Source: an uncultured Pseudomonadota bacterium
GTDB lineage: Bacteria > Pseudomonadota > Gammaproteobacteria > Steroidobacterales > Woeseiaceae
Assembly: GCA_913055625.1 (NCBI GenBank)
Contig: CAJXJW010000006.1
Location: 124,001-188,000 of the forward strand
Direction: 5' to 3'
Length of the DNA stretch: 64,000 bases
Made by a program: the position numbers and the translations under genes. The notes under the pieces are model-generated. The model did not search any database, had not been told where the DNA came from, and worked only from the letters and a program-made list of their open reading frames with translations. Shown here one piece after another: positions 58,583 to 63,756 of this stretch. How positions within the stretch are numbered: position 1 is the stretch's first letter; the number at the start of each line of letters is the position of its first letter.

Positions 58583-60571
58583 CTACTGGGCGTTCTTGCG
58601 GACCGCTTTCGAGAAGCGACTCTCCGTCCCGCTTGCGTTGTACGCCGTGACCACGAATTCGTAGGACTCGGGTGTCAGGTTCTCGATTACCGCGCTCGTA
58701 GCTCCAGCGCTCTCGACGGCCTGCGAGTTTGTATGTACGCCCGATTCCCGGCCCCAATAGACGCGGAAGCCCGCCAGGTCCGTCAATGGCGTTCCGTCCT
58801 CGTTCTCCGTGGGCGGCGTCCACACGATCGTCGCCGACGCAGACCCTGTCGGCGTCTCCGTTACGTCGATCGAAAAGGCCTGAAGGCTTGCCCTGTCGGT
58901 ACCGTCACTGACCGAAATCGCGATGCCCGGATACATTCCGATATCCTGGGGTTCAGGCGTTCCGGAGAGCGTCCCATTGCTTTTGTCGAAGCTTGCCCAT
59001 GCAGGCAGGTTACTGACGGAGAACGCCAGGGGATCTCCGTCGGCATCGCTTGCTTGCGGCTTGAAGAGGTACGTGCTGTAGACGGCAATGCTGCGGGACG
59101 GAATGCCGGAAATCTCGGGCGCCGTGTTGTCCCGGGTGACCGTGACGGTGAAGGGGCCGAGCCGGCTTTGCTCCTTGCCGTCGTCTGCCTCGATGATAAT
59201 GCCGGCGTAGGCGCCGCTGTGGCTGTCGTTCGGCGTGCCCCAGATCCGCCCGGTCTTGCTGTCGAACTGTGTCCAGCTCGGCTTGTTCTCGACGCGGAAG
59301 GTGATCGGGTCACCGTCGGGGTCGCTGGAATTCGGCAGAAACTCCCAGGCGCTGCCGGGTCTGGCAGTCCTGTCGGGTGTACCGAAGATGCGTGGGGCGC
59401 GGTTCGAGTCCGGACCGTCGTTGTCGCTGCCCGCGGCGATCACGTTTACCGTTTCGACCATCGAGTCGTCGCCGACCGCCAATTTCGATATCGCATTGTT
59501 GAGGGCGCCCCGATAGTCGTCGGGCAACAATGACCGCACGAAGTTTGCAGGTGTGCCCTCATCCAGCCTGCTCGTCACTTGTGCCAGGTTGCTGATTCGT
59601 GTCTCGCCACTGACGGCGAATGCTGCGGACAAGCCGATGCCGGCTTGCGCAATCATCTCGCGAGTGATCGGCAGATCGTCAAGGCCCGGGTCCGCTTTCG
59701 CCGGCGACACCTGCTCGATCGCCAACCGCATCGCGTCCGAGGCGTCTACTCCGTTCACGTGCAGTTCATTGGCCATGCTCTCGAGCAGCACCTGGGCGCT
59801 CACGACCAGAGCGACGGCCGAGGTGCGCGGGTCTGTACGTGTCCCGCCTAGTCCGTCGAGAACGTCGTCGACAAGATCGGCACCCAGCGCTGCTATTACC
59901 TGGTCACCGCTGCTGGACCAGCTCGCGTCGTTCAATCGGTCACGTGTTCGGCGTACGATCTCGGCGAGCGTCTCCGACGCCTTGATGATTTCGGCAACAT
60001 TTGTCTCGTTGATGGGCGATGCCTGCGGGCCGGGCTCGACCAGCGTAGTGAGGCCGCTGTTCATCGCCGAAACTGCAATGTCTTCAGCAACGCGGATGTT
60101 GTCACGGTTCAGCCCGCCGTTCATGCTGCTCGCGATCTCGAATGCGAGCGTCGTGAACGGATTGACGTTGGCCGTTGCCTTGTCCTGGTGAATGCGAACG
60201 ACACCGCGTAGCGTAAAGTCGGGAGACGTATCGGTAACAATATCCGTACCGCCAGTCGCCGTGATGATCAGCGGGTACTTGTCGGCCGAGATCTTTAGCA
60301 GGTCGATGCTGTAGTCGCCATTGACGTCGCTCTCGAGTTCAGCGAGTACATCACCCTTGACGCTGACTATCCGGATGTCTGCGTTGGCCAGGGGGCCGTC
60401 ACCGACACTGCCCGAGATGGAGATGTCGCGGATCTTGTAGCCCGCAAACGTCGTGTCGTCGTCCTCTTCGCTTTCGCTGCCCAGGCAGCCAGCCAGCGCG
60501 AGCACTATCGCTGGAACTGCAATCCGCCTTGTGGTCGACCCGAAACGTCTGGACCGAAGAAATCCTTTCAT
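58583..60571 (-). CDS. Surface lipoprotein with Ig-like (He_PIG/cadherin-like) and Fn3 domains
   Basis: 662-aa secreted protein of unknown role. MKGFLRSRRFGSTTRRIAVPAIVLALAGC is a lipoprotein leader (LAGC), followed by an acidic EEDDD spacer. Residues about 45-115 look like a carboxypeptidase-regulatory or Ig-like domain; the middle 120-370 is helical. Two putative Ig domains with the DPDGDPITF / DADGDPLAF motif and GxxxGTP ends occupy about 385-575, and an Fn3-like domain (SASATIVWTPPTENEDGTPL to YNASGTESRFS) ends the protein. ATG 60571 follows GGAG. A c-di-GMP riboswitch lies about 160 bases upstream, pointing to a role in adhesion, matrix or lifestyle switching. Confidence 0.82.
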   Translation of the reverse strand: MKGFLRSRRFGSTTRRIAVPAIVLALAGCLGSESEEDDDTTFAGYKIRDISISGSVGDGPLANADIRIVSVKGDVLAELESDVNGDYSIDLLKISADKYPLIITATGGTDIVTDTSPDFTLRGVVRIHQDKATANVNPFTTLAFEIASSMNGGLNRDNIRVAEDIAVSAMNSGLTTLVEPGPQASPINETNVAEIIKASETLAEIVRRTRDRLNDASWSSSGDQVIAALGADLVDDVLDGLGGTRTDPRTSAVALVVSAQVLLESMANELHVNGVDASDAMRLAIEQVSPAKADPGLDDLPITREMIAQAGIGLSAAFAVSGETRISNLAQVTSRLDEGTPANFVRSLLPDDYRGALNNAISKLAVGDDSMVETVNVIAAGSDNDGPDSNRAPRIFGTPDRTARPGSAWEFLPNSSDPDGDPITFRVENKPSWTQFDSKTGRIWGTPNDSHSGAYAGIIIEADDGKEQSRLGPFTVTVTRDNTAPEISGIPSRSIAVYSTYLFKPQASDADGDPLAFSVSNLPAWASFDKSNGTLSGTPEPQDIGMYPGIAISVSDGTDRASLQAFSIDVTETPTGSASATIVWTPPTENEDGTPLTDLAGFRVYWGRESGVHTNSQAVESAGATSAVIENLTPESYEFVVTAYNASGTESRFSKAVRKNAQ

Positions 60572-60673
60572 CAATGGCTCCTGCCTGTATCCCGGCAGCA
60601 AGCCAATCGAATTGCATCTCTCGATGTCTTTGGAAGATGGTTGGCGCGCCCGAGGCGCGTTACGCGGCAGGTG

Positions 60674-60731
60674 AAAAAGCGCGACTGGATTCTGCGAAAT
60701 GTCCCTACTCGCTGACTTCCGTTGTCGCTTT
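60674..60731 (-). terminator. Candidate terminator / expression platform of the riboswitch
   Basis: Directly after the riboswitch on the minus strand, AAAGCGAC (60731-60724) can pair with GTC and GCTTT of GTCGCGCTTTTT (60685-60674) leaving a two-base bulge, followed by a five-T run. A smaller GCGA/TCGC hairpin fits in the long loop. This would suit transcription termination control, but the loop is long and it is only a candidate. Confidence 0.35.
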
Positions 60732-60820
60732 CGAACCGGCAACCCCGCTATCGGTAGGCAGATGCCCTTAGACCGGAGGTTTTGCGTCCCAACCTTTCGA
60801 TTGGTTTGCCCTTATCAGTC
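60731..60820 (-). promoter_or_regulatory. Cyclic-di-GMP-I (GEMM-I) riboswitch
   Basis: On the minus strand the conserved GEMM-I core is present in order: GGGCAAACC (60811-60803); a hairpin CCAATC-GAAA-GGTTGG with GNRA tetraloop (60804-60789); GGGACGCAAA (60790-60781); ACCTCCGGTCTAA with tetraloop-receptor CTAA (60780-60768); a short GGC/GCC-closed hairpin; and TACCGATAGCGGGGTTGCCGG (60756-60736), which pairs back with AACCTCCGGT. This matches the Vibrio cholerae Vc2 aptamer architecture. It lies in the 5' leader of the Ig-like lipoprotein gene starting at 60571 and should make that gene responsive to c-di-GMP. Whether binding turns it on or off is not clear. Confidence 0.93.
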
Positions 60821-61209: not shown

Positions 61210-63756
61210 ATGGCGGACTTCCGTAACCTGATGCTATTGCCGTTCGCGGCCGTGGCGCTTCTTTGCTTGCCGACTACGCTGCTCGGCCAGTCGTTTGTCG
61301 CCTCCGGCGATACCTACACGAAGGACAAGGATCCGGGCGAGAATTTCGGGGGCCAGGCGACCGTCCGGGTGCAGCGGTGGTCTGACATCACAGGGTTCGT
61401 CCGGTTCAATCTCGACGGTTACTCCGGATCCGTGGCGGAATCCGCGGTACTCGAACTCGCGGTCGACTCGGTGAAACGCAATGGATCGGTCAGCGTGCAC
61501 CGGATCACGAGTACGTGGAGTGAGCAAGCACTGACGGCCGCCACTCGGCCATCACTCGGTCCGCCGATGGCGACTTTTGCAGTGTCGGCAAATGACGAAC
61601 ACCGGTCGCTGCAGGTAGATATCACGGCACTCTTTAACCAGCTGGTCGCGAATCCCGCAAGTAACCACGGTATTGCGCTGGTGCCTGGGAACGTAAACGC
61701 CTGGTTCGAGAGCCGAGAAAGCGGCGCGCCAATGCGCATTGTGGTGTCAACGAGCGGTGGAGGCCAGCCCCCGGGCAACGGCGAGACCCTGGCTGCCCAT
61801 CGGGATGCGTACACCAAGAGTAGCGAAGCCGCACGCAACTTTGGCGCGGATGCACTGGTCCGTGTGCAGAAGTGGTCCGACATTACGGGTTTTCTCGACT
61901 TTGACTTCGCGTCGGTGTCCTCGGGCCCGGTCGGCAATGCGACGCTCACGCTGTCTGTCGACAAGGTGATCAAGGAAGGTCACATCGACGTGCATCGAGT
62001 GACCGGATCGTGGCAAGAGTACGGCATTTCGCAATCCAACCGGCCGTCCCTGAGCGAACCGGTTGCCAGTTTCCAGGTGCGTTTCGGCGACGCCGGAAAC
62101 CGGGTCGCCGTGGATGTGACGCAGCTCGTCAACGAGATTCTTGCGATTCCGGCTCAAAGCCATGGGATAGCGCTCTCGACATCGACGGGGAATGCCTGGT
62201 TCCCAAGCAAGGAGGGTGGCACGCCGGCACTGCTCAGCCTTGGAGCCGGTACCGGGAACCCGCCGCCGCCACCACCACCGCCACCACCACCGCCACCGCC
62301 ACCGCCGCCACCCTCGGGCAATCTGCCCAACGTCGTTTTCTTCCTCGCCGACGACATGGGCTGGGGCGATGTTGGTACGTACAATTCGGCGTCGGCCATT
62401 TCAACGCCGAACCTTGATCGACTCGCGAGCGAAGGCACGTGGTTCTTTGATGCACACTCTACCGCGGCAAAATGTGCACCCTCCCGATACAGCGCGATCA
62501 CCGGCAACTACCAGTGGCGTGGTCGAAACGACTGGGGGCAGTGGAACTACAAGGGCGGTTCGCAGATCAAGTCCGGGCAGGACACCCTTGGCGATCTGCT
62601 ACAACGTGCCGGCTATCGCACGGCAGTCATTGGCAAGTGGCACCTGGGCGGAAACTTTCGCCGCAAGGGGTCGAACAACTACGCACTGGCAAGTACGCCG
62701 GACGCAGAAGTCGACTTCGCTCGCTCTTTCGTTGATGGCCCCACGCAACGCGGCTTCGACTATTCCTTCACCGCATTGCGAGGGATCCAGACCTGGCCGT
62801 ACGCATACTTCCGCAATGACAACCTCGTCGGTAGTGCGTCGCAAATGGGTGTCCTTTCAAAAGGTCGATACGGCCGCTCGGAGATCCCGCGAGACGGTAT
62901 CGGCATGCCTTACTGGGACAGCAGCAAGGTGGGGCCGGATCTTATCGATGAGGCCATCGGCTTTATCGACGACCATGTATCGACACATGGCGCCAGCACA
63001 CCGTTTTTCCTGTTCTACTCGTCACAGTCCGCTCACGGCCCGTACACGCCACCGGCAAACATGCGCGGCATACCGGTCGAGGGAGAGTCGGGAATCAACC
63101 GCCACACGGACATGATCTACGAGATAGACGTGGCACTCGGGCTATTGCTGGAGACGCTGGAGCACCAGGGCATCGCCAGTGACACGATCGTGGTCTTTGC
63201 GAGCGACAATGGCGGCCTGCCGAATGAGCTACACCGCGGGCACGATTCAGTGGGTGGCTTGCGGGGCAAGAAGGGCCAGATCTACGAGGGAGGGCACCGC
63301 GTGCCATTGATCTTCCGGTGGGGCAACGGTACGGCCGGTGGGTCGGTCGTACGTCCCGGGCGTCGGACCGACCAACTTGCGTCGCTGTCCGACGTACCTG
63401 CCACGGTCGCAGGATTGATCGGGATCAGCGTGCCGTCCGGGCAGGCGCTCGACAGCTACGACTTGTCGCCGGTGCTCAGGGGCCAGCAACCCGAGGGAAC
63501 TCCGATCCGACGTTCGCTGGTCATGCAGGCGGACCAGGCGGAGAACTCGGATGCAGTTCCGCTGCACTTTGCGGTGCGTGACGGGAACTGGAAACTGGTC
63601 TTCGACGAGCAGGAGCGCCCGGTGGAACTCTACAATGTCGGTAACGACCTCGCAGAATCCAACAACCGGATAGATGATGCCGGTCAGGCGTCCAGGGTCG
63701 CTGGAATGCAGTCCCTGCTGCGCCAGATCGTAGACTCCGCCCGCAGCGCGCCCTGA
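61210..63756 (+). CDS. S1 sulfatase with two CBM96/DNRLRE-like domains and a polyproline linker
   Basis: Exported 848-aa multidomain enzyme. A signal peptide ends near LLGQS (about 27). Two related beta-sandwich repeats follow (about 28-180 and 190-345), each opening with a DTYTKDKDPGENFGG or DAYTKSSEAARNFGA motif and containing VRVQ-WSDITGF; these resemble DNRLRE/CBM96 carbohydrate-binding modules. A linker of 18 consecutive prolines (351-368) leads to a type I sulfatase domain: NVVFFLADDMGWGDVG, Cys422 in the CAPSR formylglycine motif, GKWHLGG and FASDNGG. It needs a formylglycine-generating enzyme, not seen here. The substrate is probably a sulfated polysaccharide. Confidence 0.9.
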   Translation: MADFRNLMLLPFAAVALLCLPTTLLGQSFVASGDTYTKDKDPGENFGGQATVRVQRWSDITGFVRFNLDGYSGSVAESAVLELAVDSVKRNGSVSVHRITSTWSEQALTAATRPSLGPPMATFAVSANDEHRSLQVDITALFNQLVANPASNHGIALVPGNVNAWFESRESGAPMRIVVSTSGGGQPPGNGETLAAHRDAYTKSSEAARNFGADALVRVQKWSDITGFLDFDFASVSSGPVGNATLTLSVDKVIKEGHIDVHRVTGSWQEYGISQSNRPSLSEPVASFQVRFGDAGNRVAVDVTQLVNEILAIPAQSHGIALSTSTGNAWFPSKEGGTPALLSLGAGTGNPPPPPPPPPPPPPPPPPPSGNLPNVVFFLADDMGWGDVGTYNSASAISTPNLDRLASEGTWFFDAHSTAAKCAPSRYSAITGNYQWRGRNDWGQWNYKGGSQIKSGQDTLGDLLQRAGYRTAVIGKWHLGGNFRRKGSNNYALASTPDAEVDFARSFVDGPTQRGFDYSFTALRGIQTWPYAYFRNDNLVGSASQMGVLSKGRYGRSEIPRDGIGMPYWDSSKVGPDLIDEAIGFIDDHVSTHGASTPFFLFYSSQSAHGPYTPPANMRGIPVEGESGINRHTDMIYEIDVALGLLLETLEHQGIASDTIVVFASDNGGLPNELHRGHDSVGGLRGKKGQIYEGGHRVPLIFRWGNGTAGGSVVRPGRRTDQLASLSDVPATVAGLIGISVPSGQALDSYDLSPVLRGQQPEGTPIRRSLVMQADQAENSDAVPLHFAVRDGNWKLVFDEQERPVELYNVGNDLAESNNRIDDAGQASRVAGMQSLLRQIVDSARSAP
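62260..62313 (+). repeat. CCG/CCA triplet tract encoding 18 prolines
   Basis: Eighteen successive proline codons (nine CCG, eight CCA and one CCC) form the linker between the binding modules and the sulfatase domain. Such a tract could vary in length by slippage without changing the frame. Confidence 0.85.

Follow-up and report, generated by a model that had tools for sequence, protein, structure and literature searches.

The minus strand of a 64,000-nucleotide stretch of an uncultured Woeseiaceae genome (G000:C6:124001-188000, hereafter the window) carries a c-di-GMP-I riboswitch aptamer in the 5′ leader of a gene for a predicted lipoprotein, and we consider it moderately probable that this canonical riboswitch acts as a translational OFF switch of the Vc2 kind on a cadherin-like/Fn3 surface lipoprotein. 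Its expression platform is probably translational, with a distinctive competing strand. The Woeseiaceae are common uncultured bacteria of marine sediments. Neither the c-di-GMP-I aptamer class nor its use in controlling translation is new; among the open-access papers searched we found no work joining riboswitch, c-di-GMP and putative Ig domain, none joining GEMM, riboswitch, c-di-GMP-I and fibronectin type III, and none naming Woeseiaceae together with a riboswitch. In PMC11477304, the words c-di-GMP riboswitch, lipoprotein and cadherin are used for other things.

The aptamer and its lipoprotein gene

The aptamer is 86 nt long and sits 163 nt before the lipoprotein ATG (Table 1). The covariance search against RF01051 that the initial annotation had proposed gave 77.9 bits against a curated cut-off of 35 bits, so the score is not low, and the match covers model positions 1-87 of 87. 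The complete GEMM-I core claimed in that annotation is indeed present, with every named piece on the minus strand: a P2 hairpin with a GAAA loop, GGGACGCAAA, a P3 arm and GCGGGGUUGCC. The span originally given for the feature, 60674-60820, contains the aptamer, but about 60 nt of it are a hairpin and U run downstream of the aptamer. Our own model R1, of which the window sequence is a part, scored the aptamer at 91.1 bits. The full-length covariance match, the conserved core and the predicted surface-protein gene downstream are shared with c-di-GMP-I (GEMM-I) riboswitches of RF01051; what differs is the target, a lipoprotein family of the Woeseiaceae and their relatives.

A cmscan of the whole window returned a single match above gathering, which was to the variant family RF03167, c-di-GMP-I-GGC (60819-60734, minus strand; 68.1 bits against a gathering threshold of 59 bits; E 5.7e-14; model positions 1-80 of 80), with one lower-ranked clan match omitted. 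We take the GGC of this label to denote the bases at the three pocket positions, and the pocket bases of the c-di-GMP form to be G20, A47 and C92 in Vc2 numbering. The window has GGGC, GACGC-A-AA and GCC, which, matched to that numbering by eye, are the pocket bases of the c-di-GMP form. G20 is the selectivity position according to PMC9262584, and the c-di-GMP-I-GGC label is listed in PMC12452182. Although the window match to RF03167 lies above gathering, the cmscan alignment places an A after GACGC where the model has a conserved G, so the G required at the variant position is absent. All 30 aligned aptamers share this A (the one in the window plus 29 from the same genome and relatives), which makes the window aptamer an ordinary member of the c-di-GMP-I type. 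The GGC ligand variant was rejected on the basis of this A and of the higher RF01051 score (77.9 vs. 68.1 bits). Judged by its sequence, the aptamer is real and canonical and the Rfam clan label RF03167 is misleading; the window leader is predicted to bind c-di-GMP.

The initial annotation had also placed the aptamer in the leader of a lipoprotein gene with putative Ig and Fn3 domains, and this was borne out by Pfam matches to He_PIG (E 2.5e-18, 66.7 bits, cut-off 24) and fn3 (E 5.3e-6, 27 bits, cut-off 25). The signal peptide and lipobox were assigned by eye, and all 10 aligned homologues share the lipobox Cys29. For the N-terminal region (about 47-383), Pfam gave just sub-threshold matches to bMG3 and carboxypeptidase-regulatory-like domains. 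A profile search against solved structures found the adhesin SraP (4m03, E 3.2e-9), matched in its cadherin-like part, and, more weakly, dystroglycan. The predicted structure had a mean pLDDT of 78.9 and a pTM of 0.53, and the matches listed in a fold search were mainly Ig, Fn3 and cadherin chains together with SraP, with low TM-scores. At this pTM the domain arrangement in the model is uncertain, and we therefore do not claim a function from the fold matches. The number of repeats varies among homologues, from a single He_PIG-like repeat with Fn3 up to several. The lipoprotein may be surface-exposed and may have an adhesive or matrix function.

The initial annotation had put the gene beside a polysaccharide locus, which requires correction. 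In the minus-strand block at about 46-55 kb, Pfam identified a phosphorylase, GlgB, a GT5 starch synthase, a nucleotidyl transferase (GlgC-like by context) and GH77, and this content indicates glycogen/alpha-glucan metabolism, not surface polysaccharide. The gene at 61210-63756, divergent from the lipoprotein gene, encodes CBM96 repeats and a sulfatase domain (Pfam). CBM96 modules were also seen in a He_PIG/Fn3 protein (L187:7752-9443) whose gene is convergent with an aptamer-bearing family gene. Their presence in this protein and in the divergent sulfatase of the window hints at a carbohydrate-related role.

Table 1. Features of the lipoprotein gene and its leader, in window coordinates.
Feature	Position	Strand	Basis and remarks
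Predicted lipoprotein, 662 aa	58583..60571	-	Reading frame, ATG at 60571; lipobox LAGC, beta/alpha N-terminal region, two He_PIG stretches, C-terminal Fn3
Predicted Shine-Dalgarno-masking hairpin UCGAU-U-GGCUU-G-CUGCC / GGCAG-GAGCC-AUUGA	60571..60610	-	15 pairs, from fold
Shine-Dalgarno AGGAG within the hairpin	60578..60582	-	Fold
Anti-aptamer element UUCGAUUGGCUUGC	60598..60611	-	13 of 14 bases within the 5′-arm span of the Shine-Dalgarno hairpin
Intervening hairpin, then U run (possible terminator)	60675..60733	-	Stem -16.9 kcal/mol, z -2.09
c-di-GMP-I aptamer (G000:C6:184735-184820)	60735..60820	-	RF01051 77.9 bits; RF03167 68.1 bits at 60734-60819; R1 91.1 bits
Aptamer strand GCAAACCAAUCGAA, complementary to 60598-60611	60796..60809	-	13 of 14 pairs

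Aptamers and lipoprotein genes in related genomes

RF01051 was present in 128 of 149 genomes, the window's own counted, and lipoprotein matches occurred in 77 of the 149. The pairing of this riboswitch class with the lipoprotein family, claimed initially for the window, recurs in relatives: an aptamer lies upstream in all 17 loci L035-L051, which are the best-scoring full-length-class matches among the loci examined, each with a full-length homologue and the window's own included. A wider survey covered 116 aptamers (115 distinct; 34 plus 82 found in 80 further stretches, with L010, identical to the second hit of L165, counted twice). These were a selection from the best-scoring RF01051 matches listed, so that the proportions are not a census. 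A family member lay within 1500 nt downstream of 39 of them; membership was called anywhere within this distance, and 5 of the 77 aptamers assigned no family member had less than 500 nt of sequence downstream. Among the named loci reached by the protein profile, 14 of 41 had an aptamer, several of the 41 sharing contigs with the G loci and many others being distant or N-terminal-only relatives. In the window's genome, three of five aptamers precede lipoprotein-family genes, and a full-length paralogue (L186:812-2758) has neither an aptamer in the 811 nt upstream nor the hairpin motif described below.

The survey also placed aptamers before other gene classes. The largest class accounts for 40/116 (L001:1501-1587, L020, L021, L022 and others). 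Its inspected member, L020, is an M23 peptidase, which raises the possibility that c-di-GMP governs cleavage of the cell wall; in L001 the aptamer at 1501-1587 is followed by what we take to be a SecA-like frame. A further class follows nine of the 116 aptamers; the member inspected, L004:152-1492 from the window's own genome, is a FAD-binding/ALO-type oxidase. Another four aptamers (L018:290-1480, L123, L126 and L166) stand before a class of which L018 was inspected and combines AAA ATPase and FHA domains. Tandem c-di-GMP-I aptamers were found before family genes in L063:810-1143, L056:984-1271, L052, L054 and L146.

A predicted hairpin at the ribosome site and its antisense strand

The window leader is predicted to form a hairpin that masks the Shine-Dalgarno sequence and lies 124-164 nt downstream of the aptamer; its core (60576-60604) alone folds at -15.5 kcal/mol. 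A hairpin directly before the ATG recurs in the family with the near consensus GGUUUGCCCGCCUG-loop-ACAGGCAGGAGCAAACC-AUG, in which the Shine-Dalgarno GGAG stands in the 3′ arm. Twenty-six leaders were aligned, taken from 33 with an antisense rank of ≤12/300 (31 unique); left out were two of L048, L056, L076 (hairpin not shared) and L061, a near-copy of L157. In this alignment 81.8% of cells were paired, compared with a shuffle mean of 78.0% (0 of 500 shuffles reached the observed value) and 27-47% in slid versions. The covariation score was 0.185 vs. 0.144 in shuffles, with 1 of 500 reaching it, and pairs with change on both sides were not clearly above shuffles (67/500). RNAalifold kept just four hairpin pairs from the same alignment, none with both-sided change, perhaps owing to indels in the 3′ arm, and consequently it was the hand-drawn structure that was counted.

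In its 5′ arm the hairpin carries a complement of the aptamer GCAAACC, which in many members extends into P2. The GCAAACCAAUCGAA/UUCGAUUGGCUUGC duplex of the window was calculated at -19.3 kcal/mol, a value equaled by 1 of 300 dinucleotide shuffles. Across the family, complementarity at p≤0.01 was found in 25 of 62 leaders (23/57 without repeated leaders) and missed in the other 37; in the full-length class it was found in 13 of 18. The 62 remain from 64 leaders, 39 taken from the survey and 25 through the protein search, once a start codon and a leader of at least 55 nt were required; L146:1308 and L185 were dropped, and five of the 62 repeat another leader. Two controls were scored at the same threshold: among leaders of other genes under an aptamer 4 of 68 reached it, and among homologues lacking an aptamer, scored with a generic core, 1 of 28 did.

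Pairing each leader with its own aptamer was then compared with permuted pairs, in all cases uncorrected for kinship. No permutation out of 20000 matched the own pairs among the 57 leaders unselected for complementarity, while within the 18 full-length leaders the effect was modest (655/20000). The 31-leader permutation (0/20000) and the 26-leader tests of the hairpin, the P2 extension and the fold ensemble used leaders chosen by their own complementarity, and their results are therefore favored; the P2 extension alone gave 24/20000 in these 26. The pairings of the hairpin and of the anti-aptamer helix overlap on one leader strand, which makes the two mutually exclusive, and hairpin and complementarity co-occur with the aptamer in relatives.

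For the window leader, the unconstrained minimum-energy fold of a 280-nt RNA contained the anti-aptamer helix, whereas that of a 261-nt RNA contained the Shine-Dalgarno hairpin without the helix, and the outcome thus depends on the site at which the RNA is cut. In the free ensemble the anti-aptamer helix had a probability of 0.19 and the hairpin 0.775, which rose to 0.945 with the native aptamer fixed. When the bound state was represented by omitting the aptamer from the fold, hairpin use in the window went from 0.82 to 0.94; only a small shift is thus predicted for the window. With the anti-aptamer helix forced, the Shine-Dalgarno bases still paired elsewhere (unpaired 0.05-0.20). In the 26 class leaders, omission of the aptamer raised mean hairpin use from 0.34 to 0.60, with an increase in 23 of the 26; in 23 other family leaders it went from 0.27 to 0.38 and rose in 14. 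Free Shine-Dalgarno fell from 0.52 to 0.35 in the class leaders and from 0.36 to 0.13 in the others, and lowered access alone is consequently not specific to the class.

Proposed switching and its alternatives

Under the model that we favor, the leader element UUCGAUUGGCUUGC would pair with the aptamer strand GCAAACCAAUCGAA at low c-di-GMP. Formation of this anti-aptamer helix would block the hairpin before the ATG, and ribosomes would load (ON). With c-di-GMP bound, the aptamer strand would be held in its native fold, and the freed leader element would serve as the 5′ arm of the hairpin burying AGGAG, up to the A of AUG, with translation blocked as the result (OFF). The direction of switching is one that we infer from the fold models.

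This arrangement can be set beside two known switches. According to PMC7371385, Vc2 lies before tfoY in Vibrio cholerae and restricts translation when bound, and it is thus like the window in having a c-di-GMP-I aptamer and the OFF behavior proposed here. The P1 element of Vc2 is said in PMC9262584 to play the key role in switching, whereas the competing strand here appears to involve GCAAACC and the 5′ strand of P2, a contrast drawn against descriptions of Vc2. PMC4933901 describes Bc2 of Bacillus thuringiensis as a c-di-GMP-I ON switch on the collagen adhesin Cap that is transcriptional and works by antitermination. Bc2 resembles the window in that the gene under the c-di-GMP-I riboswitch encodes a surface adhesin (here a predicted surface protein), but the window switch looks translational and OFF.

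A transcriptional switch, in which bound ligand would let the hairpin at 60675-60733 form as a terminator (OFF) and the free leader would act as antiterminator through the aptamer 3′ strand, is in our estimate unlikely. The initial annotation had suggested a terminator directly after the aptamer, and a stem of -16.9 kcal/mol with a U run does exist there. Complementarity of the GUUG...CAAC type between the aptamer 3′ strand and this stem was noted by eye, and PMC9262584 describes a transcriptional OFF switch in Cd1 of C. difficile. The stem is weak, however (z just -2.09, with 6 of 200 shuffles equally good), its U run lies partly within the stem, the hairpin was not among the sites of a consensus terminator scan, and a T5 run occurs in just 5 of 62 family leaders. 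On the z value, the scan and the leader count, a terminator as the main platform was demoted to a rival. The leaders suggest instead that the Shine-Dalgarno-masking hairpin, and not a terminator, is the recurring platform element in many of them.

The opposite direction, with ligand freeing the Shine-Dalgarno or preventing termination so that a presumed adhesin would go up with c-di-GMP, agrees with biological expectation for an adhesin and has a precedent in Bc2 and its collagen adhesin (PMC4933901). We nevertheless hold an ON switch to be distinctly improbable. The leader element competes with the ligand-binding strand of the aptamer, and a bound aptamer should therefore favor the masking hairpin; 23 of the 26 class leaders predict the direction opposite to ON, although Shine-Dalgarno access drops in other family leaders too. 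That the aptamer has no ligand-dependent effect on the lipoprotein gene, being a remnant or an RNA-stability element alone, would be compatible with a window hairpin that dominates both modeled states and with ligand binding being a prediction from sequence. The full-length match, the conserved core and the same arrangement in all 17 of the loci L035-L051 speak against it, and we rate it as very improbable.

These results tie one RNA class to a predicted surface lipoprotein family whose cadherin-like repeats number from one to several, and the expression-platform model gives named strands that are open to mutation and compensation. For the Woeseiaceae we advance, tentatively and with somewhat less than even confidence, that a c-di-GMP-I riboswitch may be the standard controller of modular cadherin-like/Fn3 lipoproteins, in which the 5′ arm of the Shine-Dalgarno hairpin is antisense to the GCAAACC-P2 strand and the ribosome site would be released by invading the ligand pocket, not P1. 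If true, such lipoproteins would be surface factors that are turned off, not on, by c-di-GMP.
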